From contig JARGXX010000088.1 of the NCBI GenBank assembly GCA_030374765.1, positions 744,001 to 808,000 of the forward strand: DNA of 64,000 bases. Direction: 5' to 3'. The position numbers were made by a program, and so were the translations under genes. The DNA comes from Agarophyton chilense (taxonomy: Eukaryota > Rhodophyta > Florideophyceae > Gracilariales > Gracilariaceae). A model generated the notes under the pieces. That model was not told the origin of the DNA. It did not search any database and saw only the letters and a list, made by a program, of their open reading frames with translations. Positions 39,186 to 64,000 of this stretch are shown here, one piece after another (position 1 is the first letter of the stretch; every line of letters begins with the position of its first letter).

Positions 39186-40900
39186 GTGGATCCCCGTTCG
39201 GTGACGCGATGTCGCACCCTCATCCAAGTGGACATGCCATACGCCCGCTGCGAGGAGAAATTAGAATACCAGTTCAGGGTGAACAAGCTCCTCTCGGACC
39301 TATACACGGGTTTCATCTCGCCTCATGTGCGCTTTCCTCCGGCTGGTCACAACCCCTTGGCGCTTATGTACTTCCGGCCACCATACGACCGCTTATTCTG
39401 GATCTCTAACCGGGTCTGTTGGAACGAGATGCAAGAGCACGATGGTCGTCTGCGTCAATCCATGTGGTTCTTCTTTTGTAGGCACCAAGTGGAGTTTCAC
39501 GACATGAGCACCGACCAACGCCTTCCGTTGTACCTCTCGCTTCCCCACGAGGATGAGAACCAATGGGTTATGTATTGCCGTGTCTCGCCGCTCTTTCTGG
39601 TTCCCACGCCGTCCGTGGTGGCATACCACTCGTCCCAAGTCATGGGCGATGACAATGAGCGAAGGTCGTGGCTGTCCTGGCAGTTACTTTTCGTTGAGTT
39701 TAGCGAGATGTCCCTTATGGCCTTTCTGGATACCACGAAGTACGGAATCCGTGGTAATGTCCGTTGGGAGGATTGGAGGGTGTGGTACGACGAGAACATA
39801 CCCGGTCCTCGAAGTCGCCTAATCCCACTCCCGGATATCATGATCCGGCTCTTAAGGAACCTAGGCATCCAGCATGTCGTCCGTGGGGCCCAGTTCGACG
39901 TCGAGGAGACCGAGGTCCTTTTGGATTATGTCGTACAGGTGGAGTGGGGCTAGACCCCCGGGTTCCTTTGGTATGACTGGGATACCGACTCATTCACGCC
40001 GAATCCGCTGCATCCGCAGGGTCGCGACGACGCTCGTGCCTATCCTGTCAAGCATTTGAGGAATCAACCATCGGACATTACGAGACGTCATGTGCCCGAC
40101 TATTATCCAAAGGCCATTGTTTTCGATCCTCTTTGCTTCGAGCTCGATGTGGAAGCCAAGCCCTTGGTTCCTGCTGGTATTTCCGACGGAGAATCCTTCG
40201 GTGAAGATCCCTTCGTCCTACCCGTTGAGGGCATTCATCCTCCGGTTCGAGTCCGCTGTGGTGTTGCCGACCGCTTCCCCTCCTCCGGCTCCTCCGGGCG
40301 CTGCTCCTCAGGATGAGCTCTCGTATGAGCCGCCCGTCGCCCAAGTGAATATTGCTCCTGGCGAGGTTACTGTCGAAATCGAAAGTCCTGTAGGCTAGGC
40401 ACTTGCTCAAACGTCCAACGGGGGCGTCGACATAGCTCCGTTTTCTCGGTTGGCACACTTTCTTGCTTCAATCACGGCTGCAGTTGCGTATCTTTGTCAT
40501 GTCTGCCGTACCATTAGTAGCACTGCCTCGATGGAAATTGCGCATGTCCCTGGGGAAGCTTTCTCCTAGGCGCGTCGCTCGGCGCGCTACGTCGCATTTG
40601 TCCAACAGGGTCAGGATCTGAAGACCGCCATGGTCAATATCCTGCAGCGGAATGCGCAGGCGATGTCTCAAAGGGTTACTACCGACTTCGATGCCCGGTA
40701 TGGTCTGAATTTGAGTCACCGCGAGGCTTTCGATTTTGGCAATAGTTCTTCAGGTGAATCTCCGCCGAAGAAGTGTGCTCGGCTCGCTGGGGCCGGTCCT
40801 AGTTGTCCAGTTGGCTCCTCAAGTGACCTTAGTCCCGGTTTTGCTCGTGCAGGTTCCGATGAGGACGACAGAGTTACTTCTGCGCCGCCCCAGTGAGTCC
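39186..40900 (+). other. Convergent gene of Ty3 copy A, unknown function
   Basis: The plus-strand region encodes an unrecognised protein with SWLSWQLLFVEFSEMSLMAF, RWEDWRVWYDENIPGPRS and a C-terminal nuclear-signal-like part near 40,760. It ends before an AATAAA-type signal (CAAATAAAGTAA, about 40,953) and converges on the integrase. It is homologous to 58,628-59,915 in copy B. It is broken, with a few breaks. Confidence 0.6.
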
Positions 40901-42420: not shown

Positions 42421-42869
42421 AGGAAATGGCTCAAGTATATCCATTGCGACAAATTCCATCGGACATGTGGCGGGAAAGAGCTTCAATTTTTTCTGATGGT
42501 TGGCGCAAGACCCTCGGATTTGTGCGCAGGATGTGCAGTTCTGTGCGGTTTGTCATAGGTTCTGTGCCATTATTGGACAGTAGAAGAACTTTCTTAGGGT
42601 CTGGTACATTCGTCTGCCTCCAGGATGACCAGCCAAGCGGAAGAAATGGGCGAGGTATAGAAATAGCGCCCTTAGCGAAGTTGGTATTACCCGTTAGAAT
42701 GCGCCATCCAGCGGGGAGCGGCGACATAGTAGTCCAAATCGGTCATAGTCGAACAGGAATCCTGGTGCTCCTACCAATTGGGCTGTTTCCATGTAGTACT
42801 GGTCTTGTCTCGCTGCTCCTTTTGGTTCCCACGCCGTCCGTGGTGGCATACCACTCGTCCCAAGTCATG

Positions 42870-42892
42870 CGTCTGTGTTCTCGGAATGCTAG
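42870..42892 (+). repeat. Left terminal inverted repeat of element 1
   Basis: 23 bp, starting CGTCTGTGTTCTCGG and ending ATGCTAG. It matches the complement of 58,605-58,627 at 22 of 23 positions, and the start of element 2 at 60,938 at 21 of 23. Confidence 0.95.
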
Positions 42893-43120
42893 ATAAGTGT
42901 GCTAGATAGCTAGTTTTGTAAATAAAAAGCCAAAAAATCTAAGAATTTTGCAGATTGCGCTAGTTGGGCACCTGAAAAAAAAATTTTGGAAATAAGAACT
43001 CCATGCATCTTAGTGTTTTGACCACTTAATGCAGTTTAATCTGCATTTGCATTTTACTGGTCACTTTTGACCGCTCTAGGTGGAGATCCATACCAAGGCA
43101 GTCGTCAGTACCTTCTACCT
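42893..43120. other. Left subterminal region of element 1
   Basis: A/T-rich, non-coding, with CTAGATAGCTAGTTTTG and related CTAG strings. Subterminal repeats of this sort bind transposase partners in CACTA elements; the binding role here is inference. Confidence 0.6.
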
Positions 43121-43122
43121 CC

Positions 43123-43431
43123 TTACTGGCCCTTTTGCTTACTAGGCTCCAGCGTTCCACCGGGAGGGTATTTGAGGTTGAAGAAGTCCACCACCGCATT
43201 CTCAACCTCGTCCACCTCCCCACTGCTCAAGTTCCTCACACCCGGCTGCCCCACCACACACACATTCCAACCCTTCTTCTCCACATCCTTATCAACCCTC
43301 CTCTTCTTCAGCCGACTCTCTCCAACTCCTCCCCCTTTCCATTCCTCTCTCCCCTTCTTCATCCCAGCCGGCTCCCCGCGTCTCCCTGGCGTCACCGGCG
43401 ACCCTTTCGCTCTCCCCCTCTCCTCTCCCAC
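43123..43431 (-). CDS. Small basic protein of element 1, unrecognised
   Basis: A 102-residue frame, Gly/Lys/Arg/Glu-rich in its first half (RLKKRRVDKDVEKKG). The second half is better behaved (VRNLSSGEVDEVENAVVDFF). The plus strand is very pyrimidine-rich here, so the frame may be a compositional artefact. No family recognised. Confidence 0.3.
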   Translation of the reverse strand: MGEERGRAKGSPVTPGRRGEPAGMKKGREEWKGGGVGESRLKKRRVDKDVEKKGWNVCVVGQPGVRNLSSGEVDEVENAVVDFFNLKYPPGGTLEPSKQKGQ

Positions 43432-43677
43432 CTCCTTCAGATACTCTGAAACAACTGTTCAAAGAGCGGTATCATATCGTTACCTATGTGCAGCGTACAA
43501 GGAAGACTAGCAAACCGGAACGCCTTTACTAAGATGTTCAGTTAGCAAACACTCTTCACATCGACCTTAACGTTCACAATCACACTAACTACACTCTTCG
43601 GAGTTATAGACCCAGCTCTGCAATATACGCTTCCATTCAGATTCAACTCTCTCCTTCGGTTCATTCTCATAACGCTA

Positions 43678-44373
43678 TTGAGGTGTACTATCCAAAGCCT
43701 GCTACACATTCTCATAATCGAAGGAGGCGTACAATGTATAAACGCGTTATACGGGTCTCTACAAACTACGCCGTTCAATCCAAACCAGCGATATACCTGG
43801 AAGAAACGAGCCTTTCTGGAATTCGGGGCTCTACTCCTTACTCTACTCATCCCCCTCAACGCCATACTTTTCCTCGTTCACCGCTTCATTCCAGTCAGCG
43901 GTACCCTTTCATCAGACGTGAAGACAAATTGTATCGCCTTCTCCACAGGAGGGGCCGCAGTTGGCACTTTGGCATATCTTCTCCAGCTTGTTTCTATATC
44001 CTTCTTTCCAGAGTCCTATCTTAACACAAAGTTCACAATGACCCCGGAACCACGGAGAACCTCTTTTATGAACCTCGTGCTTGGCGCCCTCTCCCACTCT
44101 TTTCAACAGGCTTTATTCATATCCAGTCCGGCTGTAATCTTCCGACTACTCGGTATGAGGCTGTCGCCATGCACTTTCGCTGCACTCTCTTCAACCGCTT
44201 TCTCCACCTCTCGCATTGAGGGCCCTGGTGTTCCTATACTGCTTAGTAACACAGTGGATGTCGTAATCTTGATATCTTCGACAGTTGTCATTCACTATGA
44301 GAAAGTGAAAGCAAGTGCTGCTCTCACGCGTTTCAATCCAGTTGTTCAGGAGTTTCTACTGAAAGACGACTGA
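43678..44373 (+). CDS. Multi-pass membrane protein of element 1, unrecognised
   Basis: The 231-residue protein has about four likely membrane segments: near residues 47-67 (FGALLLTLLIPLNAILFLV), 90-108 (GGAAVGTLAYLLQLVSISF), 130-152 and 184-203 (PILLSNTVDVVILISSTVV). Loops between them carry scattered charges. I recognise no transporter or receptor family. It is the only cargo gene on the plus strand in the left arm and converges on the ParB-oxygenase gene; their stops are about 60 bp apart. The first ATG is used; a later start is possible. Confidence 0.6.
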   Translation: MRCTIQSLLHILIIEGGVQCINALYGSLQTTPFNPNQRYTWKKRAFLEFGALLLTLLIPLNAILFLVHRFIPVSGTLSSDVKTNCIAFSTGGAAVGTLAYLLQLVSISFFPESYLNTKFTMTPEPRRTSFMNLVLGALSHSFQQALFISSPAVIFRLLGMRLSPCTFAALSSTAFSTSRIEGPGVPILLSNTVDVVILISSTVVIHYEKVKASAALTRFNPVVQEFLLKDD

Positions 44374-44433
44374 TCACTTTTACAAGAAAAGGGGACTACT
44401 CCACATATTACCTCAAATTGTACTCTTTATTGT

Positions 44434-47400
44434 TCAATAGGTAACAGATACTATGTAGTCGTCGTCGTCATCCATTATCATACCGCCGTCTTCATAGTCT
44501 CCATCTGTGTTAGCCAAGTTGAGACCCATCCCAGGTTCATCATCCTCTTCTTCATACTCCTCTTCCCCACTTTCAACAACTTCCATTTTATAATCTCCAT
44601 CCAACTCCTCATCCTCATCTACCTGGACGTCTTCATCATCACCCTTGTTGGAATCATCCTCTTCGAACTTAGGCCGAAATGCTGGTTGCCTATGCACTGC
44701 GTCCGGTAGCTTGTACCCATCCGGTACCAAGTACATGTTATACCTCATGCAAACTTCCTTAACCAATGCATCCTCGTATCCAGCTCCAGCATGAAACACA
44801 TCTCCTCTTCCTATAAAAATGGAGTACGGCGGAATCCTGAACTTCCTCACTACCATCGTCCGAGACAGCCGCTTCAAGCTCCTGTCGTCGGGCACGTACA
44901 TGTTATGTGACCTCTCACAAACCCAAAGCATAAACGAACTCGCTCCCGACGCCATCATGAAGAACCCTGGAACCTCTCCGACGTTCTTCTCGGCATCGGT
45001 CAGTCCTCGAAAGTCCGTATGTAACACCTGCCTTGGACAGCCCTCCGCCGTACACAGCACTCGCCCCCCTGTTTCAGGGGCATACATCCTCTTCTTCCCC
45101 GACCGGTTGTTGCAAAACCGAAGAGCGGCCGCAATCTGTCCAAACTTCGCATCCAACAATGCCCTTTTCCTCACCATTAAAACGTTGTTCTCGTCCCCCT
45201 CCACAGAATCCACAATCCCCACCTTCGTCGTAATGTACCGCCCAACTCCCTTCATTCTATCTCCAGCGTCTCTCTCCTCACCAGCGTTGATTATAGGGTC
45301 CCATTTCTTTCTATTCCCTTCAATCGTCAAGTCCAGCTGGTTCAAGAAATCCGTCTGGAAGAACTCTAGCAAAGTCCCAGTCACATCCCCATCGAAGTTT
45401 ACCCCCCTCTTCTTCGCCTCATCCGCCATCCCCTCGTCCGTGGCAAACTCTTCCAGCACACAAAATCCTTTCTCCATCAGCTCACTTCTCTTAGTCGCGA
45501 AGTACTCGCGGGCCAAGTCATCCCTCTCCATTGCTGCCATCCATATCGCCTGCTCTTCATTCACAGGGTGGTCCTTCGTCGGTAGAATCACCCCAAAAAC
45601 CGGTTCTTTCGTAGAACCCAGTTCCTTGTGCCTGTTATGAGCAGCACGCCAATAAACCGCATGGGGCACACTTTTCAAGTCTTCTACCCTCAAGCACTCC
45701 GCCCTGTGCTTGTTCCGTAGGTAACTCATCTGCATCCAGAGGTGCTGATGCTTCACTCCATTTTCACCCGCCGGCCACTCGCTCGGAAGTGCATTCACCA
45801 AGTACACCCACGACATACCCGACCCCTCCGCATACGGTCCCGCCCTCTTCAGCCCCTTCGGAACACCCTCCGGATTATTGTCTTCGAAGCCACGCATTTG
45901 CACACCTTCCTCCTCTTCGTCCCCTACAAATGCACCCTGCCCCCCGTCATCATCCATTTCATCCTCACTCGATGAGAAAACATTGAGTACATGTTCTTTC
46001 AAGAAGCGCTTCAGCTCTTTCCTGCTCATCTTCTTGAACACATCCACCACGTCAGCTGGTATTTGAGCCGCAGATGTGCCCACCGTCTTTCTCCTCTTCC
46101 TCTTCCGCTTTAAAGGCTGTTCATACTCGCGTTCATCATCACTAATGACCACAGCCTTTCTCTTCCCCTTTCTCTGTCTAGGTTCCATCACCCTCTCACC
46201 CGCAGCATCCAGCTCGCGCTCAGTACCTCTTCTAGTTCGTGTGATGCGTCTGGGAACCACGGTTTCCTGGTGGGGTACAGACTCCCCAGCGCTAGACGAA
46301 GGAACATTCACAGAAGGTGGCACCCCCACCACATCCTTCTCCGCACTTGGGGACGCCAGAATCACTTTCAGACCGCCTTCAATCCGCCTTTGTGCGATTT
46401 TCATCCTCTTCGACACCAACCCTGGCCACAACCGCTTCGGACCACTGAGCTCCATCTTCGCCGTTTGCATGCAAAGGTACTCCCTTAAAGACACCTCGTT
46501 CTTTCCCATCACAATTGTGCTGTCTAGAACCTTCCCCGCCGTCAGACCCTTCTCCTTTCCCGCCCTTTCGCATAGTTGGAACATTCCTATGGCGCATTGG
46601 AAGAACTGCTTTCGCGTCTCCTGGAAACGTCCCATATTCCCCCTAGAACCCATCCTCACCCCCACATGTAGCTGCAACCAACGGATTGCGAAACGGAATA
46701 TTTCGTCTTCGAGTCCTAACAACAAGTCACTCGACACATGCGCAAGCGTTAGCACTGAACCTTCCTTGCATACGTTCTCAAAGAACTCCAGGAGACCTTC
46801 GCTCCTGACGAAGCCCAACCCAGGAGTCGCATAGCGATTCAAGTGGCGCAAGCTGTAGATTCCTATAGCTTCGCTCGTCTTCAGCGCCCCAGCTATCCGT
46901 GTCGGAGTAAGGTCAGCCAACTTGGTTCTCTTATCGTCAATCAATTTGCAAATGAAGGACACTGTCGAATGAACCTTGTCGGCGAAACTCATCTTCAACA
47001 CATTTGAACTCATTTCATTGAGTACATTACCAAGACCGAGCACTTCGTTCAGCGATAAAGGCTTCCGGTCCTTGCGTCTCCAAAGAAAGACATCAAGAGA
47101 CCGCACAATTTCCAACCACTTTCTCCCTTCAGAGGGATCATTCTTCAGATCTCGCAGAACCAAGACGCGGTGATGACCGTCAATGAGTATGACAGGCACC
47201 ACTACCCTCCCATTGTGAACAATTTCACTGAAATCTAATTCCATTCCCCCGACGATGGCAACAGCAATCGACCCTGCCGACGCAAGCCAGCCAAACGTTT
47301 TGCACTTTGCCATCGTCGCCGCCTTGTGTTCCGCATTCACACTTCTGACAGTCTTTTCGGGGATTTGTATGTCATCTATGTCCACAATCAAGCGGCACTG

Positions 47401-48152
47401 GTCATAGTCTGAAACAGAGATCTTCTTTTCCACGAGAGTCCTATCCACTTCCTGCGAAGAAACGGCATCGCCGTCATCGAACAACTCCAACTCGGGACCG
47501 GTGTGCGAATCCCCGCGTACATTCCGCGTACATTCACCGCTGACCCCACCTCCACAACATCTTCATCAGAATCATCCACTATCGTCACCCTCTTTTTCGG
47601 CTTGACGGGTTGCCTCATGGCCGGCGGCCCTGTTGTTGGCTGTGCCCTCTTCCCCCTCAAAGGCGTAGCAGACTCCTTCGAGGGGGTCGCGCTTTTGGGA
47701 GTCTCCGGCCGAGGAGGCCCTGGAGTCAGCACAGAGGAGATGCGTGTCATCATCGAGGTATCCCATGCGTATATACCTGCCGACACCATATCCTTCAGCA
47801 ACTCCGGCGGCTCCTCTGCTCCCTCGAAGGAGTACGGATACTTGGAGTTGATCCCCTCCTTAATTTCAGTCCTCCAGATGGCCACCAAGTTCTCTCCCGG
47901 CTTCGCAGACTCGCGCAACGAATGGCCTTGCATCGCTCTGCAAAGCGCCTTCCCGGCCGCTTCACTGCCCCCAACACCTCTCAACTCCGCAGTGCCAACC
48001 ATAGTACCCTTCTTCTTCCCTGTCCCATCCGCCAGGAACAACGCCACCCTATCCCCACCAGCCAGATTGTTTCCCGATGTAGCTTTTCGCGGAGTGGCGC
48101 GTGGAGTACCCCGCGGAGTACCCCTCGCTTTCGCTTTGCCTCGAGTCATCAT
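44434..48152 (-). CDS. ParB-like domain plus 2-oxoglutarate/Fe(II) oxygenase-like protein of element 1
   Basis: Two overlapping frames make this locus. The downstream frame (47,490-44,434, 1018 residues) has a ParB-like domain at residues 34-115, with RLIVDIDDIQIP and VILIDGHHRVLVL (the ParB IDGHHR box). A basic nuclear-signal-like cluster follows (LKRKRKRRKTV). Near the C-terminus lies a double-stranded beta-helix oxygenase signature. It has HTD (His824, Asp826) in RQVLHTDFRG, PGFFMMASGASSFMLW, the distal His900 in GRGDVFHAGAGY and Arg916 in CMRYNMYL. The tail is very acidic. The upstream frame (48,152-47,388) starts with a basic repeat (GTPRGTPRATPRK) and looks like the N-terminus. An 11-bp tandem duplication at 47,513-47,534 lies at the overlap and accounts for the frame change. 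A TET/JBP-type DNA oxygenase is possible but not shown. Confidence 0.7.
47513..47534. repeat. 11-bp tandem duplication inside the ParB-oxygenase gene
   Basis: CCGCGTACATT occurs twice in a row (47,513-47,523 and 47,524-47,534). Eleven bases change the frame, and the coding style moves from the upstream to the downstream frame exactly here, so it is likely a recent inactivating slip in this copy. Confidence 0.85.
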
Positions 48153-48674
48153 TTGAATCGGATCGTAGTCGGTCGAGGTTCCAAATGGTCGCAGAGCGCT
48201 TTGAGCCTTTTATGGTATATAGACTAAGACGAAGCACACCCCTGTCGGTCGACATAATACATATAATTTTGGAACGCCCAGGTGTACACGGTGCACTCTG
48301 TCGGCCGACAGATGTGCGCTGCGACTTCATCGGGGGTCCCAATGAAGTCCCCGCGCACCTCTGTCGACCGACATAATACATATAATTTTGTAATTTTTAG
48401 GACGCCCAGGTGTACACGGTGCATTCTGTCGGCCGACAGAGGTGCGCGGGGACTTCATCGGGACCCCCGATGAAATCGGAGCGCTCCTCTCACGGCCGAC
48501 AGAATGCAACCAGAATAGCTGCGAAGTCGTTCCGCAACAACCGTTCTTCCGTGCGCGCTCCTCAACCGTACTCACAATCTTTCCGTACCCACCCGCACCC
48601 ACCCGCACCCGCTGCTCTCTTTCACTCAGGCTCTCGTGACGACCGCGCGTGAGGTTGTTTGAACATGTACATAA
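48153..48674. promoter_or_regulatory. Divergent promoter region of element 1 with a palindrome array
   Basis: These 520 bp lie between the leftward ParB-oxygenase gene and the rightward cargo genes. They contain two imperfect tandem units, 48,243 to about 48,361 and 48,362 to about 48,502. Each has TGTCG-NN-CGACA, then ATAATACATATAATTTTG, then GCCCAGGTGTACACGGTGCA, then the 14-bp palindrome CTGTCGGCCGACAG, then a GACTTCATCGG...ATGAAGTC inverted repeat. Shared operator-like sites for a regulator encoded by the element are a fair inference. Confidence 0.75.
48243..48502. repeat. Tandem palindromic sites (TGTCGG-CCGACA)
   Basis: Sites at 48,243-48,254, 48,298-48,311 (perfect), 48,362-48,373, 48,426-48,439 (perfect) and a weaker one at 48,491-48,502. 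Spacing is about 55-65 bp. Between them lie larger imperfect palindromes around CCCCCGATGAAATC and its partner. Confidence 0.9.
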
Positions 48675-50096
48675 ATGGCTCCAGAACCCACGAGAACTTC
48701 TTCATCGCCTGCGGCAGACACCTTCGAAATGGGTAGACTGTTTGGTACGGGGGATGAAGTTATCAGGGCGTGTCTGGATTTGCGTGATCGTTACGCATCA
48801 ACGAGGCGGGAGGAAGATGAGCCGCGAAAAGTGGGGCACACTGCATTCATCGATTTCGCAATTGCCAATCGCCACATCCTACCGGAGACCGCGAAGTTTT
48901 TTTATACTCTCCTAGGTCCCGACCACACCAATTACACAGAAGATGAGCTCCGAGTTGTAGGAATGAGGGGCTCGAACTGTCAGAATTATTTCTCGGCGAG
49001 GTTGCTGGATATAATGGATGGGGACCCAGATAGGCGCGTGATGGACTTTTGGAACGCGTACGAGGCGGTGGAGTTCAAGAGCATCCCGAAGAATGTCACT
49101 TTGACAGATTTCTTCAAAGGTCTGGATACAACCCAAAAGAAGGCGAGCAAAAGCCGGCCTCCATTCGCGACCGACTTCCCGACAATGTTCCAGAGGTTGC
49201 TGTTCCTCATTTGTATTCAGTCGGTCTCTATGGAAAAGAGAAGAGTCTCCCGTAAGCGAAGAAAGCGGGACAGAACCTACGATACGCCATTTTCGAAGGT
49301 GGCGATTTATGACAAACCAGTAGCTCAGCGTGTGGGCTTTGGTGTGCAGCTCGTCAATAACGCGTGGGACAGCTTCGCCCAGTATTTGGGATTCCCTGGC
49401 GTGGAATTCATGGTTTTGCCCTTTATCCATCTACGATATTCTGATATGCAGTTCCAGGCAATCGGAAACAGAAGGGATGGGTTCTCTCACAAGGACATAG
49501 CCCAACGACTCCTTCCTGGTAGAAACCGTACTTTATTGGAGGAGGATGTCGTCCCATGGGCGTGGAACCTGCCGGAGTACGTTGACACTCCACTTCGTAT
49601 GTTGGCCAAAGAGTTCCTCGCTGACCTGCACAAAGTGGTGGTGAATGAGCAGCTTTACTCTATATCAGCTCCGGAAAGATGGGACGTTCTAAAACCGTTT
49701 ACATACACTTTGCCTAGATTGTTTGCGGAGAGATTCGACTGCTTCTCGAACTCTCTTATCTCTACAATCTCGGAATACATATCGCCACTAAAGCTGCGAG
49801 GGAGTGTGGAGGTGGAAGTGGTGGCTGCGACAAAGGCGGAACCTACTATGGTTATGGAAGAAGACGAGATAGAAGTTGTACCCCCTGAGAAAGATTCGGA
49901 GGCTCTGGCGGTGGAGGGTGGAGAGGGAGCGGAGGGTGGGACCGGGAATGAGGGAGAGAACATGGGTGTTGGTCAGCATTCTTCCACAGCTGGACCAAGG
50001 TCGGTCGAATCTGAGTCGGTGGATATTCTGCCGCCTCACGACCTTACCTCTCTGGATGATATAATCTCTCCAAAAGTGCGAGTCGGAGATGGATAA
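48675..50096 (+). CDS. Unrecognised 473-residue protein of element 1
   Basis: The protein starts MAPEPTRTSSSPAADTFEMG. Its first 330 residues look globular, with aromatic-rich helices (FIDFAIANRHILPETAKFF, then MVLPFIHLRYSDMQFQ). A basic patch, KRRVSRKRRKRDR, lies near residue 195. The last 120 residues are acidic and low in complexity. I recognise no family. Its 3' end overlaps the ATG of the DNA methyltransferase by 8 bases, as tight as in an operon. It could therefore be the target-recognition partner of the methyltransferase or a compact neighbour; the first idea is inference. Confidence 0.65.
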   Translation: MAPEPTRTSSSPAADTFEMGRLFGTGDEVIRACLDLRDRYASTRREEDEPRKVGHTAFIDFAIANRHILPETAKFFYTLLGPDHTNYTEDELRVVGMRGSNCQNYFSARLLDIMDGDPDRRVMDFWNAYEAVEFKSIPKNVTLTDFFKGLDTTQKKASKSRPPFATDFPTMFQRLLFLICIQSVSMEKRRVSRKRRKRDRTYDTPFSKVAIYDKPVAQRVGFGVQLVNNAWDSFAQYLGFPGVEFMVLPFIHLRYSDMQFQAIGNRRDGFSHKDIAQRLLPGRNRTLLEEDVVPWAWNLPEYVDTPLRMLAKEFLADLHKVVVNEQLYSISAPERWDVLKPFTYTLPRLFAERFDCFSNSLISTISEYISPLKLRGSVEVEVVAATKAEPTMVMEEDEIEVVPPEKDSEALAVEGGEGAEGGTGNEGENMGVGQHSSTAGPRSVESESVDILPPHDLTSLDDIISPKVRVGDG

Positions 50097-51189
50097 GCAC
50101 TGTCGAATGTACAATTGTACTTTCGAGAACCTGGTGGAGATTGAAGAGACATTGCGCAGCAATGGGGTCTCTCCGATAGGGAAAGTGCAGTTGGTTCTCA
50201 CGGACCCGCTGTATAATATACGTGCGAAGAAGAACAGGAAAAACAGCTGGTACGACGTTCTTAACCGGCAAGACATGGTGAAGACGGCGAAGCTCATCTC
50301 TAAACTTCTGCGTCCGGGAGAGCATTTCGTTATATTCTGCGCGATTGAGCAGGTGAACCAATGGAAAGAAGTGTTGAGTCGAATTGGTGCAAAGGATGAG
50401 AATGGACAGAAGAGCAGGTCGTTTGTCGTGGACAAGGTCCAGCTGCACTTCATTCGCTCTCAAGGCAATCCGATGCGTAATCCCGGACGTAGTTCGTGCT
50501 CCCTGTTTCACGGAACAGAGTACGCCATTCATGGAGTTCGCAGCGGGTTGTCCTACGCCTAACAACATGGCATGGTGAACTATGCGAACTTCAGCTATGT
50601 ACTATTGCGATATCCGGGTTACCATAGCGTGATTGACCAAGTGTTTCCCATGTCGAATGGTGAAACACTTCTATGGAGAAGGAAGAATGCCAAAGGAGCA
50701 GTTACGTATCAGAAAGTGCGAGCGGAACAGAAGTCACGCGCTTTGCTGAAGGAGCTCATCAGCAGGTTTTCTCAGCCGGGAGACATAGTGGTGGACCTCT
50801 TCGCCGGAACATTTTCAACGGCCATGGCATGCATGGAACTGGAAAACCACCGTCAGTTTCTAGGGTGTGAGCCAGATCCGCAGTGCTTTGCTCATGCGAA
50901 GCACGCCGCTACAGTGAAATTTGCGTCATGCATGCGGAACAACGAGACGGACATTCATATAACGCAAGATGTTCGGAACGCTGTGACTCGAGTGACATGC
51001 TTGTTTCCTGACGTCGTCATAAAGCGTTCGAAGTCCTGGAAAACACCTACCGGATTTCTCGAGCATCAGATGTTTCCACCCCATATCGTGGATTTTCTCT
51101 CCTCCATGTGGCAGGATAAGAATATATCGGAGATTGGGCGACGGCAGGCGCTGTATGAGTGGCCAAGAAGTTTTCAAGGAAAGATGTAA
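50089..51189 (+). CDS. DNA methyltransferase, N6-adenine/N4-cytosine type, of element 1
   Basis: Motif IV appears first: VQLVLTDPLYN near residue 39, a DPPY variant with Leu for the second Pro. Later come AEQKSRALLKELISRFSQPGD and motif I, IVVDLFAGTFSTAMAC, then FLGCEPD. Order IV before I is the beta class of amino-methyltransferases (N6_N4 family). These methylate adenine N6 or cytosine N4 in DNA; sequence alone does not settle which. The frame is interrupted by TAA at 50,560-50,562 but continues in the same phase. A 48-bp GT..AG stretch at 50,547-50,594 could splice it out in frame, though the host introns I can define are about 100 bp or more. The next gene (SET) is also in this frame. Confidence 0.8.
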
Positions 51190-51192
51190 CTG

Positions 51193-51783
51193 TTGGATTG
51201 GAATGCTATTCCTGCAGTGGAGGCGACAGTATGTGGTTGTCGGATTGCAAATGCTGGAGTTGGTGTGTACACAACACGCCGGGTGATACAAGGTGAGACT
51301 ATTTGTTACTTTTACGGGACTTTGGTGTACCATGATCTTTCAAAGCGGAAGGAAGTTCATAAGGCATACGGAGGGGGGGTATTGAAAGCGACTGCTGATC
51401 GTTTTCGGCATTTCGAGATGGAGATAAGCGCCCGAGGGGAAGTGTTTCACAAGCTACCAGGAAGAATTAGTGGGGTGTCTCTTATTCCGGTGTGGATTGT
51501 CCCTGCTTTATTTTGCTTGGGGGGAACAATTAACGACCCCAAGTATGTGGAAGGGGATAGGGACAGAGATGCGGTTGAAGACGGGTTAATGAGACGCCGA
51601 ACTGCAAATGTTCGGGTCATCAGAACTCCAGGGACGGGGCGGACCCCATTTCAGTTGAGAGACTATAGATTGCTTTCTGTGCAAGCAATTCGAGATATAG
51701 AAATAGGAGAGGAGCTGTTCGCGGATTATGGGACAGAGTATATCTGGATTATGAATAACACGCCAGTCATAGTAATCGATTAA
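51193..51783 (+). CDS. SET-domain protein (protein lysine methyltransferase-like) of element 1
   Basis: SET proteins methylate lysines, mostly on histones. Visible SET marks: GVGVYTTRRVIQGETICYFYG (N-SET; family pattern GxGxxxxxxIxxGExIxxYxG), GTINDPKY at the usual NH region with Asp for His, then ANVRV, and AIRDIEIGEELFADYG (C-SET, with catalytic Tyr). About 196 residues, a small stand-alone SET like viral ones. No ATG opens it. The frame is the same as that of the methyltransferase and is separated only by TAA (51,187-51,189), so it may be the C-terminal part of one methyltransferase-SET protein. The missing start and the NH change lower confidence in activity. Confidence 0.78.
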   Translation: MDWNAIPAVEATVCGCRIANAGVGVYTTRRVIQGETICYFYGTLVYHDLSKRKEVHKAYGGGVLKATADRFRHFEMEISARGEVFHKLPGRISGVSLIPVWIVPALFCLGGTINDPKYVEGDRDRDAVEDGLMRRRTANVRVIRTPGTGRTPFQLRDYRLLSVQAIRDIEIGEELFADYGTEYIWIMNNTPVIVID

Positions 51784-52110
51784 AAGTGCATCGCTTTTGT
51801 TACTTTACTTCATTGTAGTGTACCAGATATTGTGGGCTTTTACAATGTTTGTCGCTACATATAACGTCAAAGCGTGACGTAGTACATATGCTAAAGGAAA
51901 GTCATGTACACCGAAGGAGAATACTTTTCCAATATCTGGTGCGTTCGAGCGCATATTTAAAATATCTGAAAAGTTTGGGGGTTTTCTGAGAACCCGAAAA
52001 GGGTGGAAGTATATTTTTGGAAGCAGAATGTTTCGAAGCTTCTCTCCCATCCATCGCATTGCAACGCGTGGAAGACCATACCACGATCGCTCTCTCTCTC
52101 TTCAACCATT
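51784..52110. other. Spacer within element 1
   Basis: A/T-rich stretch after the SET gene, probably its 3' end and the promoter of the next gene. Nothing else seen. Confidence 0.4.
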
Positions 52111-53196
52111 GCTCCGAAGCGCAAATCGAGAAGCGAGAACACTAGCGGGCGCGGTACAAAATCACGGCGGCATGGAGGGGATGCGGAGGGCGGAAGGGAC
52201 AAGGGGCGTAGGCTCCAGGGCGGGAGTGGAGAGAAGGGAGGCGAGCACCTGAGAGGTAGATCAAGGCAAGATGGTGGGGAAGGAGAGGCGAGTGGGGGCA
52301 AAGGAAAGGCTGTTCGCGCAAAGGAGACGGTGACGGAGGAGAGTGCGGAGCAAATCACGTCGCGTACGGAGCAAATCACGTCGCCTACGGGAGAGATAGT
52401 GCGGAGTGGCGATGGAAAACGGGATGGCGTGCGAAGCAACCGCACGCGTGTACCTAGAAGTGGATTGGGGGGGAGGGCGAGCAGAGCTCCAGGGAGGACA
52501 AGGAGAGGGGATGCATCCGAGGGAACTCTAAGTGCTGTACTCACGTCTTCAGCTGATGTGGAGCCGGTAAATCCATGCTCTGCACCTGAAGGAGGTGAAG
52601 AGATTCCGAATGAGAGGACGAAGGGGCGTAAGGAGGGAGAGAGAATGATCGGAGAACGTGGATCCCGCCTCAGAGGCGTTGAAGAAGCAGGGGCATCGTT
52701 TACGGGTATGAGGGAAGAGGACGGTGATGATGAGATACAGAAAGAGAGAATAGAGAGTAGCCGTTGTGGGGAGGGTAGAATAGGTGGACCCAGTAGTGGT
52801 CTAATCGAGGGCGCAAGAGTCGTTCGAGAGAGAACAGAAGGAGAGAGTGTTGGAGTTACCGCGGGGGAACAGGCGGAAAGATGGGAGGGGGCGAACTTGG
52901 ATTACGTAGAAGAAAGAAGAGAGCGTGCAAGGGAAAGAATGGGGAGTGTTCGAGTTACAGGAAGAAGAGCGATAGACGAAAGAGAAAGCAGAGAAGTGCA
53001 TGTGAGTGAGGGGGGGAGAAGGGGGTTTGCTGGAGGGAGAACACGTGGTTCAGGGGAGGAAGGCGATGGAAGAGCGGCAGTTCTTTCTCATCAGGAAGAA
53101 GATGTCAAGCGTTTGCCACCGAGGAGAGGGGTGGGTTTGGGAGTTGAAGGGTTTGAGGTGAACGCAAGGCGAAGGACGCCGGAAGTATGCGAGTAA
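52003..53196 (+). CDS. Gly/Arg/Glu-rich low-complexity protein of element 1
   Basis: A 397-residue frame made almost wholly of Gly, Glu, Arg, Ser and Lys. It includes a short exact repeat (TSRTEQITSPT, from doubled GGAGCAAATCACGTCGC). Strong purine excess on this strand would keep such a frame open by chance, so the real start and even the gene are doubtful. Its end overlaps the next frame by 10 bases, and the two may belong to one gene. Confidence 0.4.
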   Translation: MEVYFWKQNVSKLLSHPSHCNAWKTIPRSLSLSSTIAPKRKSRSENTSGRGTKSRRHGGDAEGGRDKGRRLQGGSGEKGGEHLRGRSRQDGGEGEASGGKGKAVRAKETVTEESAEQITSRTEQITSPTGEIVRSGDGKRDGVRSNRTRVPRSGLGGRASRAPGRTRRGDASEGTLSAVLTSSADVEPVNPCSAPEGGEEIPNERTKGRKEGERMIGERGSRLRGVEEAGASFTGMREEDGDDEIQKERIESSRCGEGRIGGPSSGLIEGARVVRERTEGESVGVTAGEQAERWEGANLDYVEERRERARERMGSVRVTGRRAIDERESREVHVSEGGRRGFAGGRTRGSGEEGDGRAAVLSHQEEDVKRLPPRRGVGLGVEGFEVNARRRTPEVCE

Positions 53197-53990
53197 GGAG
53201 AAACATTGTATTCACAAGGAATAATGATAACGGGGAGAATGCGAATTTAAATGTCGTGGAGAACGCCGTCTGTATAGTGGAAGATGAAGCAAATGATGAT
53301 GACATAGGTTTTTTGCCGCGGTCGATGCTAATTGAGAAGATGAATGTGTTGAAGGGACAAATGGGACGTATGAAGGAAGACAGCTACAGTGTGATGGTGG
53401 GTTTGAAAATGACCCAAACGGAGCTGGATCGGGCGATGGAGGAAATGAAGCAGCAGAATGTGCTGATTGAGAGTTTGAGGGAGGCGTTGAAAGGTAGAAT
53501 CGCTGGGGAAGGGAGGGGGGAGGGAGGTGTGACGCGGCGACGAAAGTATGACATTGGAGTGCAGGAATGCTTTTATGGATTTGCACGTCGTGTGTATGAT
53601 AGGATTCTTCATTATGCAAAACTGGAGGCATCGGAACTTTGCTTAGACACCGAGAATGTGGGTCGAAGCTGGAAGAATAGAAGTGAGGCGGTTGGGGAGA
53701 GTAGGGAGGAAAGTATGTTTGTGGTGGGAGAGAAGGAAATGGTTCCGAGATGTCCAATTGAGGTTGCATATGAGATGAGACCGTATACGCCGTCGACAGA
53801 GGGCGGGAGCCATTTGTTGTTGAAGCACGTGGTAGAGACTGAGTTAATGGGAGAGAAATGGGAGTCGATAAGGGAAGCGGGGAGGAGAGAGGAGTGCGTG
53901 GAAAATGTAAGTGCGGATAGGTGGCTTGAGACAGAGGATGAAGCAGACATTGAGCGATGTGGTTGGGGTGCGGAAGCGAGCAGCGCGTGA
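53187..53990 (+). CDS. Coiled-coil protein of element 1, unrecognised
   Basis: The 267-residue frame has a long heptad-rich coiled coil at about 45-105 (MLIEKMNVLKGQMGRMKED, then QTELDRAMEEMKQQNVLIES). A compact part follows (VQECFYGFARRVYDRILHYA). Coding style then continues in another frame (RAARDKLFSMLGYDLIAKRA, about 53,970-54,040) and on into the next gene after an in-frame TAG at 54,067. The three pieces look like one gene with a frameshift and a stop, or with unseen introns. No family recognised. Confidence 0.5.
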   Translation: MRVRRNIVFTRNNDNGENANLNVVENAVCIVEDEANDDDIGFLPRSMLIEKMNVLKGQMGRMKEDSYSVMVGLKMTQTELDRAMEEMKQQNVLIESLREALKGRIAGEGRGEGGVTRRRKYDIGVQECFYGFARRVYDRILHYAKLEASELCLDTENVGRSWKNRSEAVGESREESMFVVGEKEMVPRCPIEVAYEMRPYTPSTEGGSHLLLKHVVETELMGEKWESIREAGRREECVENVSADRWLETEDEADIERCGWGAEASSA

Positions 53991-54069
53991 TAAGCTGTTT
54001 TCCATGCTTGGATATGATTTAATCGCGAAACGAGCTAAGGTGACTGAAGGGACGGAGCTTTGGGCGTAG

Positions 54070-54762
54070 TTGAAGAAGCAGATTGAGGAGGCGCAGGAGA
54101 AGTTGATGGGGTCGGGGGAGGATGGGAGAGGTAAGCTGTGTGCGTGGAGAACGAGTGCGATTGAAGATATTACTTATTCTGGATCGAAGGTGTCTGAGAA
54201 CTTGGAGGACTTCGGTGAGACAGATATTTATTTTCGAAATCAGGTGTCGTTGAAAGTGTTGGAGGAGTTTATGGGCTACGCGGTAGAGAGTCACAGAAAT
54301 GGAGAAAGGCAGTATGTGGATGGGACGGTGATGCATCTTGCGCGACTTGATGCATGGATTGGATGTGTGGTGACCACGATGGATAGAGACGTTGGGCGGG
54401 GAGGCCAAAGGCAACTTTTGTTCTCGACGCTGTTTGGGAGATTTCTGCCACTGGCTGTTGAGGACATAATGAGGGTTGCCTGGAACATGGTGAAGGATGA
54501 GTATGCTGAGGAGTTTGAGAATGCTGGATTCTGTGGAGGGAATCGTAGAGATGTGAGTGGGAATAAGGAGAGAATCGCGACGGTTGGGCTATGGATACCG
54601 TCGAGAGAGAAAATCTATCTGGCGATAAGGGAGGAGTTTTTCATGGAGAATCTCACGAGAAGACTTGGAGCGGTGTTAGATTGCTATACAGCGTCATGTG
54701 GACCAGAAGAACCACGGTTCAAGCGCTTAGAGTTGGGGAGTAGGCAAGGAGTAGGAGAGTGA
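54070..54762 (+). CDS. Unrecognised protein of element 1 (likely C-terminal part of the coiled-coil protein)
   Basis: The 230-residue frame begins with a helix (LKKQIEEAQEKLMGS) that continues the previous gene's coiled-coil style. A globular part follows (RRLGAVLDCYTASCGPEEP) with aromatic and acidic residues (NLEDFGETDIYFRNQVSLKV). No ATG fits well; the frame opens at TTG after a TAG. It converges on the transposase, with stops about 90 bp apart. Confidence 0.5.
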   Translation: MKKQIEEAQEKLMGSGEDGRGKLCAWRTSAIEDITYSGSKVSENLEDFGETDIYFRNQVSLKVLEEFMGYAVESHRNGERQYVDGTVMHLARLDAWIGCVVTTMDRDVGRGGQRQLLFSTLFGRFLPLAVEDIMRVAWNMVKDEYAEEFENAGFCGGNRRDVSGNKERIATVGLWIPSREKIYLAIREEFFMENLTRRLGAVLDCYTASCGPEEPRFKRLELGSRQGVGE

Positions 54763-54849
54763 TAAGGTACGGGGGGATAAGGGGGTGAGGAGGTGGAGCA
54801 AGATGGGGGTCAGCTATGGAAGAAAAGCAGAGGTGACTATTTTATTGGA

Positions 54850-57800
54850 TCATGTGCCTTGGGAGGTATTATTATAGGTGCCACCCAGTGGTGGTGTTGT
54901 GCCGCCAGTGGTGGTGTTGGAGAAGTAGGGCTTGGCAGTTGGGTCTCGGTAGAATCTGTTGAGGTAAAACCGATGGAAGCGCCAGTGCAATCGAGGGGTG
55001 AAGGGGGGTGCGGGGTAGTTTTGGCGAAGTACATGAACGGGGCCGAGAATGGAAGAGAATGGTACGAGGCCGAACCAGGGGGAGACGTTGTCGGAGTTGT
55101 AAGTGTTTGAGATAGGAAGGGGGTGGGCGGTGTGGTTTTGTTCGTCGTCTGTTGCCCATCGGAGGCAGATGCAATTGAGAGAGACATCGACTTGATCCTG
55201 GGGTGGAACGAGTTCGAGGAACAGAACGAAGGCGAACTCGTTATGAGTGGAAGGGGAAGAAGGGGTGGTGAAGCGAAGAAGAGAGTTGAGCTTGCAGACC
55301 CAGGCGGTGGGAGTGGGGTTGGAGAAGCTGGATCCGGCAACGAGGATGTGGGAGAACTTTGGGGTTTTAGAGGGACCGAAGGAGGGAGCAGCGAAGATAC
55401 GTTGAATGAGTGGGAGAGGGGGATCTTTGACGGCGAGCTCGTTTCGATCGGCGATGTAGTCGTCTAGAGTTGGGGTGAAGCCGCCGACGACGTATGGGGA
55501 ATTGACGAATGTGAGACGGGTTTGGCGGAGAGTGGGGGAGTCCTGGTTGAGAGCTAGTGTTTCGAGTGTGAGTGTGACGAAGGAGGGGAGTGCGAGGGTT
55601 CCAATCTGTGAGATGAGGGCGATAGTGTCTGGGGAGAAGAGGTCCTGAAGGGAAGAGATTGTTGAGTGGGGGTTTGCTCGAAGGAATTTGTGAGCGGTGA
55701 TGAGATCGGAAAAGGAGGTGTGCTTGCCATCACGGACGAAACCTGGTTTGCGGGCTTGGAAGGGAGGAGGAGGGGCATGGGAGGATGAGGTGACGGAAAG
55801 ATCAGCGGAGATAGAAATCCAATTGTTGACGGCATCGGAGCATTCGATGGCACGGATGGTTTCGTTGTGCGCGGTGGGTCTGCGCTTGGAGGTTCGGGAG
55901 TAATGTGCTTTGAAGAGGGTATGGGCTTGTTCGAAGATGCCTGCATCGTTGAAGTGGAGACCCCCAAAGCGTCGAATGTCGTCTACGATGTGATCGAGGA
56001 GGTGGAATTTGAGGGTGCCAAGGTTGGAGGTATGGTATGGACCGAGAACATCGACAGCTCTGTGCTTGAAGGAATGGATTTGGGAGGCGAGTTTGGCAAG
56101 ACGAGAAGTGGTACATTCGGGGACGGAGTTGTAGCACATGGAGGTGAGGAGGAGTTCTGTGTACTTGGAGAAGACGGTTGTGATGGGAGCGGAATTGGCT
56201 TCGTCACAGCAGCGGTCGAAGAAGGCGCCGATGAAGGGGAAGACCATGTCGAGGGCGCGGTAGTCTTTTGCTTCTAGCATGCCGCGGACGCCGTCAGTTG
56301 TGAAGAAGCCGTTGAGGGACTGCCCGCTTTCGGAAGTAGAGAAGTCGATGTGGAGGCCGGTAGCTGGGGAATGATTTTCGATGGCGGTGAAGATGAAGTT
56401 GGAGTGCTTGAGGATGGAGGTGCGGACGGAGTGGAAGGAACGGCAGGAGTTTGTGGAGCTGATGGTGGTGAAGAAGTGTTCTGATCTGAGACGTTCGATG
56501 GCGGAGAGCTTGATGAGTTTGGAAACGCCGAGGTGGAAGTTGTGGAGGGGTTCGAAGGGGAAGATGTTGTATGGGGTGAGGAGGGGGGTGATGTTGAAAA
56601 GGGGGTAAGACTCGAAGAGGGAGGGGTATTTTGCGAGGGAGAGGGAGTGGAGTGCTTGGAGAGCTTGTTCCTTGAAGTTGCGCGAGACTCATGGCTTGCG
56701 GGCGAGGAGAGCTACTTCGGAGTCTTTGAGGAGGGAGAAGTGTTTGTTGCGGGCTGCAAGGGTGAGGGGAAGAGATCGAGGGGGATGGGCGTGTGAGTGT
56801 TGGTGGAGTTGTGAGCGAGGGACAGAGCATCTGTGGCAGGGGTGCTGGGGGTGGGTGCCGTGGGAGATGGCGAGAATATCCTTTGCCTCGAAAATGTCTG
56901 CGCAGTAGCTTGCGATGATGGGGTGGCATTGACGAAAAACGCCGTCTGCGTCGCGGAAGGGAAAACCGGAGAGGGCGGAAGAGAAGAGAGGTTGAAGGAG
57001 AGAGGAGATGGTCTGCTGTATGAGTTCCATTTTTGTTTGGCGGGGGATGGAGGAGGAATGAGTGATGATATCTGCATCTAGAGAAGGAGTGATTGGGGTG
57101 AAGGAGGTGGGAAGATAGCCGAGGAGTGTGAGATTGTCGGAGATGCATTTGCGGCGAAAGGAGTCGGAGAAGTTGAGAAGGGTGATGTGGAGGGGGTTGG
57201 AGGTGATGGAAGAAGATTTGAGAGAGGTAGAGGACTTGTCGGAGTAGATTTGGACGAGGCCGATGAAGGAGTCGATACCGGTGGAGTGAGGGGGATGCCA
57301 GACGATGTTATCTTTTGTGGACTGCATGATGGCGGTCTTGAGTGCGGGGACGACTTTTGAGCCGAGGGTGGCTGCCATGGGGTGTGCGAAGGCGGGGGAG
57401 CCGGAGGCGGATGTTTGGGAGGTGGGGTGGAAAAAGGTGTTCTTGAAGTGTGCGAGGGCGAGCTGTTGTTTGAGGACATGGATTGCATCTTTCTGTAAGA
57501 GGGTTGCGGAGAAGCGTTTGTGGGGATCGAAGATGGTGTAGGGGGCGAAATCAATGGACCTGATTCTCTGGTGGAAGAGGTCTGCCTGGAGCTCGAGGCA
57601 TTGCTTTGCGGAGGAGACTGAGTTCTGGAATGTTGATTCGGAGAAGTGGGGATCATTAAGGAGAGTGATGAGTTCGTCAGCCTTTCGTTGTCCAAGCTTG
57701 AAGGCGATGGAAGAGATGTAGAGGACCATTTTCTCCAGGTGGGGGTTGTCGAGGGGGGAGTGGAAGGAGGGAGGGGGGAGAGAGCGAGAGAGGAGGGGGA

Positions 57801-58112
57801 ACCGAGAGGGGCAGTGACGACGTGGATGGCGTCCTGGGTGTGGAGGGAGAGAGAGAGCTGGTCTTGGAGGTAGGAGTCATGGTGTGCGAGAGGGACGTTG
57901 TCGGAAGGGCGATGTGAGGGAGGAGGATGAGGGGGGAGTTGTGAGGTGGACTTGTGGCGCTTTGTGCAGGGGGGGAAGTTGGGTTCATTTCCGCCAGGGG
58001 AGAGGAAGCGCTTGTTGGCGGAGAGGCGATGAGGGCACCTTCTCTGGTGCCGCTGGAGGGCGGGGATTTCTCGGGCGAAGAAGGAGCAACCGTTGAAGCA
58101 GCAGGAAGGCAT
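54850..58112 (-). CDS. Plavaka/CACTA-like transposase of element 1
   Basis: It starts at about 58,112 with a C2H2-type finger (MPSCCFNGCSFFAREIPALQ, then RHQRRCPH). The core at 57,729-56,692 has ISSIAFKLGQRKADELITLL, FIGLVQIYSDKSS (a likely catalytic Asp in YSDKS), NLTLLGYLPTSF, GVFRQCHPIIASYCAD and HPCHRCSVPRS. The frame continues past an in-frame TGA at 56,689-56,691 with YPSLFESYPLFNITPL and LHNFHLGVSKLIK. It then has FKHRAVDVLG, KFHLLDHIVDDIRRFGG and FEQAHTLFKAHYSRTSKR. The C-terminus ends near HWRFHRFYLNRFYRD. This is the domain order of Plavaka-type transposases known from fungi. Besides the TGA, the frame changes between finger and core near 57,730, so the copy is damaged unless introns explain it. 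Confidence 0.85.
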
Positions 58113-58229
58113 GGTGGGTGGAGGAGAGGTGGTGGGAAAGAAGTTGGTAGGGGGCGTAGACGGAGAGAGAGTATGGCGCACACAGGGCACGTGACAGGGG
58201 AGGGCGGTGGAGAACAATATAGAATGCAA

Positions 58230-58604
58230 GGCACGTGAGGTCTGCCAGGTCGGGCTGCGATTCTATTGCGATTGATATGGATGGTACTAAATGTTCAATT
58301 TCTATTTTGAGGTCCATTTTGGGACCGGTTGTTTGTACTAATCTGCCAATCTAGAGCGCACAAAGATTGAATCTGCTCCTGCACCACTTCTCTACTTTTA
58401 CCTTTAAACTGTGGCGACAGAAAGATTCACGCTAGTTTTACCTCCATCAAAACTAGAAAAACTGCAGATATGTGCTAGTTTTCCTTCTCATACAAACTAG
58501 CACTAATGAACGAATGAAAATATTTTCGGAAATTAACACCTCCAAATTTGGATAAATTCACGGGTTTTTCGGTCATTTCAATTCGTCCTTTTTTGACCAC
58601 TGAA
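58230..58604. other. Right subterminal region of element 1
   Basis: Non-coding, with repeated CTAGTTTT and AAAACTAG strings (about 58,431, 58,450, 58,475 and 58,490). They mirror the CTAG-rich left end and fit CACTA-type subterminal motifs. Confidence 0.65.
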
Positions 58605-58627
58605 CTAGCATTCCGAGAACACTGACG
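58605..58627 (-). repeat. Right terminal inverted repeat of element 1
   Basis: Begins CTAGCATTCCGAGAAC and ends CTGACG. One mismatch to the left repeat. Followed by the TG of the target duplication. Confidence 0.95.
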
Positions 58628-63860: not shown

Positions 63861-64000
63861 AGACAGTGTTCTAGCACCGTAGTCATGATATGCAATGGTC
63901 AGGCCGGCCGGTTACGCGATATTGTAAAATACTTGTTTCTGATTGGACTAGGCGGTTGTGAAAATGGTTACGGGAGTTTTCGGGAAAGCTTTGACCTTTT

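Follow-up and report, generated by a model that had tools for sequence, protein, structure and literature searches.

The window analysed here, a 64,000-nucleotide stretch of the genome of the red alga Agarophyton chilense, contains one transposon insertion at positions 42870..58627 (+ strand, 15,758 bp), bounded by 23-bp terminal inverted repeats (TIRs) and a 2-bp duplication, with an empty relative of the target elsewhere in the window. Both the left (42870..42892, + strand) and the right TIR (58605..58627, - strand) match CGTCNGTGTTCTCGGAATGCTAG with 0 mismatches, compared to 0 matches on average in shuffled sequence. The TG duplication (42868..42869, second copy 58628-58629) is read from the flanks, with the junctions CATG/CGTC on the left and GACG/TGGG on the right, and from the empty site. 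Joining the flanks with one TG gives an ungapped alignment of 462 bases to positions 39581-40042 with 88% identity, placing the empty target site at 39636..39653 (+ strand) in a relative of the interrupted ORF, which is gag-like by eye. The single element with TIRs and a TG duplication proposed in the preliminary description is therefore confirmed. Its being "clean" applies to the boundaries, but not to the copy itself, which has lost internal sequence that copies of 17.9-18.8 kb retain and carries a frameshift and/or stops in each of its three main genes.

These are a ParB-like/oxygenase-type gene (44434..48152, - strand), frameshifted here into ORFs 44434-47490 and 47388-48152; a gene fusing an amino-DNA methyltransferase (MTase) with a SET domain (48675..51783, + strand), broken by a frameshift and stops; and a broken gene for a Plavaka-type transposase (54850..58112, - strand), which is open over 1,087 aa in copies C10 and C117. 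A hydrophobic ORF, membrane-like by eye (43678..44373, + strand), and ORF4 (52003..54762, + strand), broken in the window copy and open over 884 aa in C99a, have no family match.

Mapping the exact TIR sequence on the genome shows 164 matches (83 on the + and 81 on the - strand), with none for the reversed-pattern control. Eleven copies were read, counting that of the window; 10 of them display a 2-bp duplication and none a 3-bp one, while C71b has no duplication. The number of exact ends and the differing flanks with 2-bp duplications also speak against an assembly accident. The full-length family size is about 18.8 kb; a segment of about 2.2 kb is missing at 43439..43440 in the window copy, C99b and C71a, present in six of the 11 copies, and altered in C88b and C16. 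The ORF in this segment of the six copies is weakly ketopantoate reductase-like, with matches below the cut-off to ApbA_C (E 0.044) and NCBIfam PRK06249 (8.6e-4). The ParB-type, MTase-SET and transposase regions are kept in nine of the 11 copies, the other two, C88b and C16, being internally deleted, and at least 25 same-strand pairs of oxygenase-type and methyltransferase matches were found (among the best 40 of 63 and the best 40 of 68 candidates). The 25 longest of 61 inverted-repeat pairs include none that would delimit a smaller insertion round the cargo. The cargo thus recurs in other copies with the same TIRs, the outcome that the preliminary description had named as support for its claim, and belongs to the standing content of the family; neither of the observations that it had named as refuting the claim was made in these copies and repeat pairs. 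A nested smaller insertion is not supported, the cargo being in register across copies and enclosed by the TIR pairs. C10 and C117 are 99.0-99.7% identical in three long blocks, lie at unrelated sites and have the three main genes open, which indicates recent movement; judging by sequence, the family is young.

The transposase of C10 matches the Plavaka transposase domain PF18759 of Pfam (E 1.2e-22, 81 bits, cut-off 26.3), supporting the earlier assignment as Plavaka-like, and the Plavaka, N6_N4_Mtase and SET profiles match the expected ORFs of the window copy. In Plavaka transposases, the segment from the second D to the last E is expected to carry the motifs C(2)C and H(3-4)H; CHRC and HLLDH, followed by an E, are putative counterparts noted by eye in the protein. 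The passages available from PMC12730594 describe PlavakaA with a 2-bp target duplication and termini TGT..ACA, and PlavakaB with a 2-3-bp duplication and CATCA..TGATG. The 2-bp duplications of our family agree with this, but its termini begin CGTCT/A and resemble neither subgroup, and we thus use the label "Plavaka-type", outside the two described subgroups.

In C10 and C117, the methyltransferase and SET domains form a single open frame encoding one 1,043-aa protein, which excludes separate genes; the preliminary description was right about both domains and wrong in assigning them to two proteins. The match to N6_N4_Mtase (PF01555) scores 66.9 bits (cut-off 26.7); SET (PF00856) reaches 23.4 bits in C10, barely over the cut-off of 22.4, and 28.6 bits in the window ORF. 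DPPY and FAGT, which we take to be motifs IV and I of amino-DNA methyltransferases, are present in the MTase-SET alignment A1, DPPY preceding FAGT; in the window copy DPPY is altered to DPLY. We found 21 relatives of the fusion protein. At E<=0.01, N6_N4_Mtase is detected in 21 of 21 aligned members and SET in 15, the transposon protein included; some of the six without a SET match are short. In IMG/VR, at least 42 loci show similarity to the MTase part alone, the matches all lying inside residues 436-773. A viral fusion is thus not seen among the matches listed, which do not support deriving the protein as a whole from a virus or phage. The fusion protein is predicted to methylate DNA at N6-adenine or, less likely, N4-cytosine, and also lysine.

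The partner gene is intact in C10, where it is open over 1,228 aa with the motifs DGHHR (aa 321), HTDF (aa 1041) and DVFHAG (aa 1114). Two patterns are conserved between the transposon protein and its contig-end paralog described below: HTDF..GDVFHAG..R, which resembles the metal-site pattern of 2OG-Fe(II) oxygenases, and D-G-x-H-R, which we take to be a ParB motif, hence the label "ParB-like" only. The searches yielded no Pfam match at E<=10 for the ParB-like part and, for the oxygenase-type part, no Pfam match to any oxygenase family and no match in PHROG or PDB. Neither profiles nor PDB bear out either label of the preliminary description; both names are putative and refer to the motifs shared by the paralogs. 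No relative of the full protein was found among 8,000 protein-database candidates scored, nor of the oxygenase-type part in IMG/VR. The C-terminal part has one protein-database relative, P0022, with RTDF in place of the HTDF of both paralogs.

The two cargo genes are read divergently, and the intergenic region that separates them contains hairpin units round the palindrome TGTCGGCCGACA (48243..48521). Transposon copies have 1 to 14 palindrome sites with at most one mismatch, four of them in the window copy. CTGTCGGCCGACAG occurs at 207 places in the genome, compared to none for the reversed control, and every one of the 50 distinct places listed faces an exact TIR no more than 19.5 kb away. 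The palindrome at contig ends reads ATTGCCTGCAGGCAAT, as against CTGTCGGCCGACAG in the transposon.

Beyond the preliminary description, the divergent two-gene pair is also found, as old paralogs, in contig-end units beside an OrsD/helicase gene. Scoring the best 45 of 213 candidates revealed at least 22 MTase-SET copies near contig ends, 20 of them within 21 kb and all 22 within 60 kb of the end; 20 of the 22 read away from it, and 21 have stop-free rows. The partner gene lies in divergent order beside 14 of these copies and was not detected for the other eight, six of which have less than 5.4 kb of contig beyond. Conversely, 14 of 19 contig-end partner places are paired with an MTase-SET gene, and five have none in the expected place. 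The contig-end and transposon partner proteins are 38% identical over nearly their full length (1,297 vs 1,228 aa), and the MTase-SET lineages 35%. The helicase gene, read in C10 and only in part in C25 and C16, matches DEAD (6.1e-12), Helicase_C (4.3e-10) and OrsD (1.8e-6). Units in tandem at C10:1-20000 are 99.9% identical, no TIR-like string was found in three contig-end stretches read, and, among 10 contig starts listed, those of C95 and C76 have CCCCTAAA-type tracts. The profiles, the tandem arrangement and the MTase-SET positions fit a helicase gene in repeated end units, which we take to be telomere-linked helicase units (TLH / Y'-like). The transposon is thus not the sole carrier of this pair, whose paralogs are combined in the same way close to contig ends. 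In the MTase-SET tree, where the split is unrooted (midpoint only) and branches are long, the transposon protein groups with P0001 and the contig-end protein with P0002, each at 100/100, so that the split appears to predate the divergence from another lineage.

Taken together, these observations lead us to lean, at slightly better than even chances, towards a young giant Plavaka-type family that moves with a two-gene DNA-plus-histone marking module shared with subtelomeres, the function being predicted. The MTase-SET fusion and the divergent ParB-like/2OG-oxygenase-like protein would form this module, read from their common intergenic region. The ParB-like protein may bind the palindromes, and the fusion protein would mark the DNA and nucleosomes of the element, as a means of self-marking, masking or control of dosage. 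The pair may act likewise on subtelomeric chromatin at chromosome ends.

A rather unlikely alternative is that the transposon once acquired the pair from the host, at a subtelomeric locus, and gains nothing from carrying it, any function residing in the host. Consistent with such passive carriage, most transposon copies read are broken, while the contig-end copies are intact. The pooled pN/pS among the copies read is 0.72 to 1.00 (1.00 for MTase-SET); purifying selection was not found by this measure, and selection on the cargo after insertion is thus not indicated. Smaller derivatives also retain both ends: the first 100 TIR places listed include 30 inward pairs, 29 spanning 3.0-18.9 kb and one 39.7 kb. 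In an end-related family, the sole fully spanned stretch has other gene content, the second copy (C96) being represented by about 3.5 kb of sequence. However, the two paralog lineages are old and the transposon-type relative P0001 occurs in another sequence source, so that the main gene of the pair has been retained for a long time; both genes of the pair are also still open in C10 and C117, which moved recently. The reverse transfer, in which the subtelomeric units are selfish Y'-like end-elements that took the pair from transposons, seems improbable: the OrsD/DEAD-helicase gene, the near-identical tandem units and the stretches without TIR-like strings would suit it, but the unrooted split does not favor this direction. 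Least probable is counter-silencing by a TET-like 5mC eraser, suggested by analogy with the TET/JBP genes that Plavaka and other fungal transposons carry and for which counter-silencing is proposed (PMC12730594, in part), since CpG transitions (0.072 per site) are only about 1.35 times non-CpG C/G transitions (0.054; singletons, nine copies), so that a strong 5mC decay signature is absent, the oxygenase-type part matches no Pfam oxygenase family, and the partner enzyme is predicted to add methyl groups of a different type.

Compared to the fungal Plavaka elements, as far as excerpts of PMC12730594 describe them, the family shares the transposase profile, the 2-bp target duplications and an added base- or chromatin-modification gene. 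It differs in its ends (CGTCW..WGACG), in its cargo, an MTase-SET fusion and an oxygenase-type protein in which no similarity to TET is detected, instead of TET/JBP, in its red-algal host and in the paralogous pair near contig ends. A bilin reductase (PF05996, 2.6e-75) and a GAPDH gene are consistent with such a host. The giant EnSpm/CACTA families of Chondrus crispus, which according to parts of PMC6431247 measure 16-20 kb and have 4-5 ORFs, resemble it in host group, size, ORF number and superfamily neighborhood; their extra ORFs are left undescribed in those parts, and the two could be related or even the same kind. Oomycete HarbingerS and MuDR transposons also bear SET, but belong to other superfamilies, and a fused amino-methyltransferase is not mentioned in the sections available from PMC12730594. 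According to extracts of PMC5890265, dinoflagellate and charophyte retrotransposons likewise encode their own DNA methyltransferase; those are C5 (cytosine) enzymes in retroelements, whereas our element is a DNA transposon and its enzyme an amino-MTase fused to SET. N4CMT of bdelloid rotifers (PMC8885841, in part) is another eukaryotic protein that couples a bacterial-type amino-MTase with a chromatin domain, but this domain is a chromodomain (reader) in place of SET (writer), and N4CMT is a host gene marking transposons rather than transposon cargo. The giant repeats of Amoebidium also have a flanking Plavaka transposase and extra intron-poor genes, many of which are tyrosine recombinases in the portions available from PMC11244446. 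Subtelomeric gene duplications in Cyanidiophyceae provide a further case of multi-copy genes at red-algal chromosome ends; in the available text of PMC9812998, the methyltransferase passages concern arsenic and "helicase" does not occur.

More tentatively, it is possible that a palindrome-recognising two-gene epigenetic module marks the DNA and chromatin of any carrier, being within one genome both selfish transposon cargo and a standing component of chromosome ends, with diverse relatives in public sequences. A single polypeptide that could mark a DNA base as well as a lysine would directly couple two layers of chromatin information. The presence of the pair both in giant transposons and close to chromosome ends links the biology of transposons with the chromatin of telomeres, and the module is a concrete, testable candidate for the origin of non-5mC DNA methylation in a genome of red-algal type.

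The window (G000:C88:744001-808000, from a genome of 79.8 Mb in 135 contigs) holds a real transposable element at 42,870-58,627. Its 23-bp terminal repeats are identical except at one mismatching position, TG flanks it on both sides, and the flanks joined through a single TG align without gaps to window 39581-40042 (88% identity, 462 bases), with the empty-site string at 39636. These features bear out the single insertion with TG duplication proposed in the preliminary description; the interrupted host ORF has, by eye, a retrotransposon gag-like appearance. The Plavaka-like nature of the 1,087-aa transposase is likewise supported by a match to the Plavaka profile (1.2e-22). Cut-and-paste transposition is established for the transposase superfamily, and the ends, duplications and empty site here are consistent with it. 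The element also carries an 884-aa ORF with no family assigned (ORF4) and a hydrophobic ORF.

The genome has 164 exact matches to the end pattern (83 on the plus and 81 on the minus strand; zero for the reversed control), and the 531-bp left and right ends used as queries gave 126 and 136 candidates, the best 40 of which were scored per end. Full-length reading of 11 copies, the window copy and ten more, revealed 2-bp target duplications in ten (TA, AG, TA, AA, TG, TT, TG, TA, TT, TG), with none seen in the copy C71b. Six copies of 17.9-18.8 kb include a 2.2-kb stretch, whose ORF has a weak likeness to ketopantoate reductase, under cut-offs; this stretch is missing from the window copy, C99b and C71a. 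Among paired copies, the distance from the left end to the ParB region forms two main classes, of about 1.93 and about 4.15 kb. Copies C10 and C117 differ by only 0.3-1% across three long blocks and have flanks unrelated to each other; therefore, the family moved recently. Both have uninterrupted frames for the ParB/oxygenase-type, MTase-SET and transposase genes. In raw, composition-uncorrected counts, GATC is rarer in the intact C10 copy (C10:918487-937296; 1.70/kb) than in the host part of the window (positions 1-30000; 3.47/kb).

The cargo belongs to the transposon family. As queries, 2 kb of the oxygenase-type gene and 1.7 kb of the MTase-SET gene returned 63 and 68 candidates, and the best 40 of each contained at least 25 pairs of matches that share a strand at a spacing of 3.6-6.5 kb. 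The recurrence that would support the preliminary description is observed: all main regions are present in the window copy and eight further copies (C10, C79, C117, C104, C71b, C99a, C99b and C71a), nine of the 11 compared, C88b and C16 being internally deleted. In a protein search of the genome, the 1,043-codon frame had zero stops in both segments in 12 of 20 two-segment family rows, a count that excludes three unsplit family rows. Pooled pN/pS among copies (0.72 to 1.00) counts against any benefit from the cargo.

The preliminary description had listed an amino-DNA methyltransferase and a SET protein; both domains are found, but in a single 1,043-aa protein, MTase-SET (N6_N4_Mtase at 505-742, 66.9 bits; SET at 869-1027, barely over the cut-off at 23.4 bits). 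Its N-terminal part of about 480 aa had no match in the profile search. Since its top solved-chain matches are the adenine methyltransferases DpnA, CcrM, RsrI and MboIIA, with the N4-cytosine enzyme PvuII behind (0.0034), our guess is that it methylates N6-adenine. The protein search gave 21 relatives; in an alignment of 20 (A1), the PP of DPPY is invariant and the SET part varies more. In the distant relative P0020 (743 aa), a weak ParB-like match under the cut-off (ParBc_2, E 0.18) lies beside the MTase, a hint that the two domains may travel together elsewhere.

For the 1,228-aa partner protein, profile searches gave no family match, and no full-length relative was found among the best 8,000 candidates scored in the protein database. 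Its putative ParB-like (DGHHR, aa 321) and oxygenase-like (HTDF, aa 1041; DVFHAG, aa 1114) character is motif-based. All three motifs are kept in an intact 1,297-aa contig-end paralog on C96 at only 38% identity; the relative P0022 reads RTDF where the paralogs read HTDF.

Another stretch, about 19.2 kb long (window 60938-64000, continuing to C88:824129), has related ends, CGTCTGTGTTTTCGGAAAGCTAG and CTAGCGTTCCGAGAACACAGACG, and is bordered by TA at either side. Inside lie a degraded related transposase, a PDS5-like ORF (Pfam 1.8e-18), an apparent nested LTR element and an ORF that is sulfotransferase-like by eye but matches no Pfam family. For the left end of this stretch the genome has 118 candidates, the best 40 mostly 83-93% identical.

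Searching the genome with the distant relative P0003 (best 45 of 213 candidates scored) revealed, beside the transposon copies, at least 22 closely similar MTase-SET genes; their frames span 1,013-1,141 codons, and 21 are stop-free. Twenty of the 22 lie <21 kb, and all <60 kb, from a contig end, and 20 point away from the end closest to them, with both exceptions on 48- and 57-kb contigs. The units at C10:1-20000 also encode a protein that matches DEAD helicase, Helicase_C and OrsD, and we take them to resemble telomere-linked helicase units. CCCCTAAA-type tracts open contigs C95 and C76 (two of ten contig starts inspected). Units are in tandem at C10:1-20000, where such tracts separate them, and direct repeats of about 771 bp lie upstream of MTase-SET at C25:1-10000 and the C16 end. 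The three contig-end stretches read showed no similarity to element DNA, no TIR-like string and no TGTCGGCCGACA string.

The partner gene was recognised at the start of C116, and a DNA search with the contig-end version found 19 genome places. At 14 of these it stands in divergent order <15 kb from a contig-end MTase-SET, corresponding to 14 of the 22 genes; six of the eight without a detected partner have <5.4 kb of contig beyond. MTase-SET is absent from the expected place at C31:730467, C63:22428, C9:7088, C68:61853 and C6:1040343, the last only 79% identical.

In the transposon, hairpin units built on TGTCGGCCGACA fill the region from which both cargo genes diverge, with 1 to 14 sites per copy (up to one mismatch). 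This 14-mer occurs at 207 genome places (none for the reversed control), and an exact TIR faces it within 19.5 kb at all 50 distinct places among the matches listed. The window has four 14-bp palindromes, two of them in the cargo intergenic region; single ones are not rare, and the repeated array is the notable feature. Between the contig-end pair (1,833 bp of intergenic sequence read), the 16-bp perfect palindrome ATTGCCTGCAGGCAAT is present as two copies with a spacing of 773 bp (C96:7274 and 8047). From the pairing and these palindromes, it follows that two carriers of unlike DNA share the same divergent gene pair, each with repeated palindromes between the genes.

A tree of 23 proteins places the transposon protein with P0001 and pairs the contig-end protein with P0002 (59% identity), both groupings at 100/100 support. 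The duplication is therefore older than the split from the P0001 and P0002 source lineages; the tree, midpoint-rooted with long branches, does not fix the direction.

As a Plavaka-type giant transposon carrying epigenetic cargo, the element is of a kind already known. Among fungal transposons, Plavaka and others are reported to carry TET/JBP genes, and oomycete HarbingerS and MuDR elements to carry SET genes (PMC12730594); C5 enzymes are present in retrotransposons (PMC5890265), the rotifer N4CMT joins an amino-MTase with a chromodomain (PMC8885841), and Chondrus giant EnSpm families are published as size and ORF number (PMC6431247). The literature covered, which mostly leaves aside subscription papers and Repbase Reports, gave no amino-MTase/SET fusion, red-algal cargo of this kind or subtelomeric occurrence, and no description of the MTase-SET architecture or the transposon/chromosome-end pairing; this silence is weak evidence of absence.

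As for function, removal of 5mC by the oxygenase-type protein is not favoured, because the excess of CpG transitions (0.072 per site vs 0.054 elsewhere) is no strong trace of 5mC. We propose that the ParB-like protein would sit on the palindrome arrays, that the fusion protein would add methyl groups to adenines of adjacent DNA and to lysines on neighbouring nucleosomes, and that the oxygenase may edit or extend such marks.
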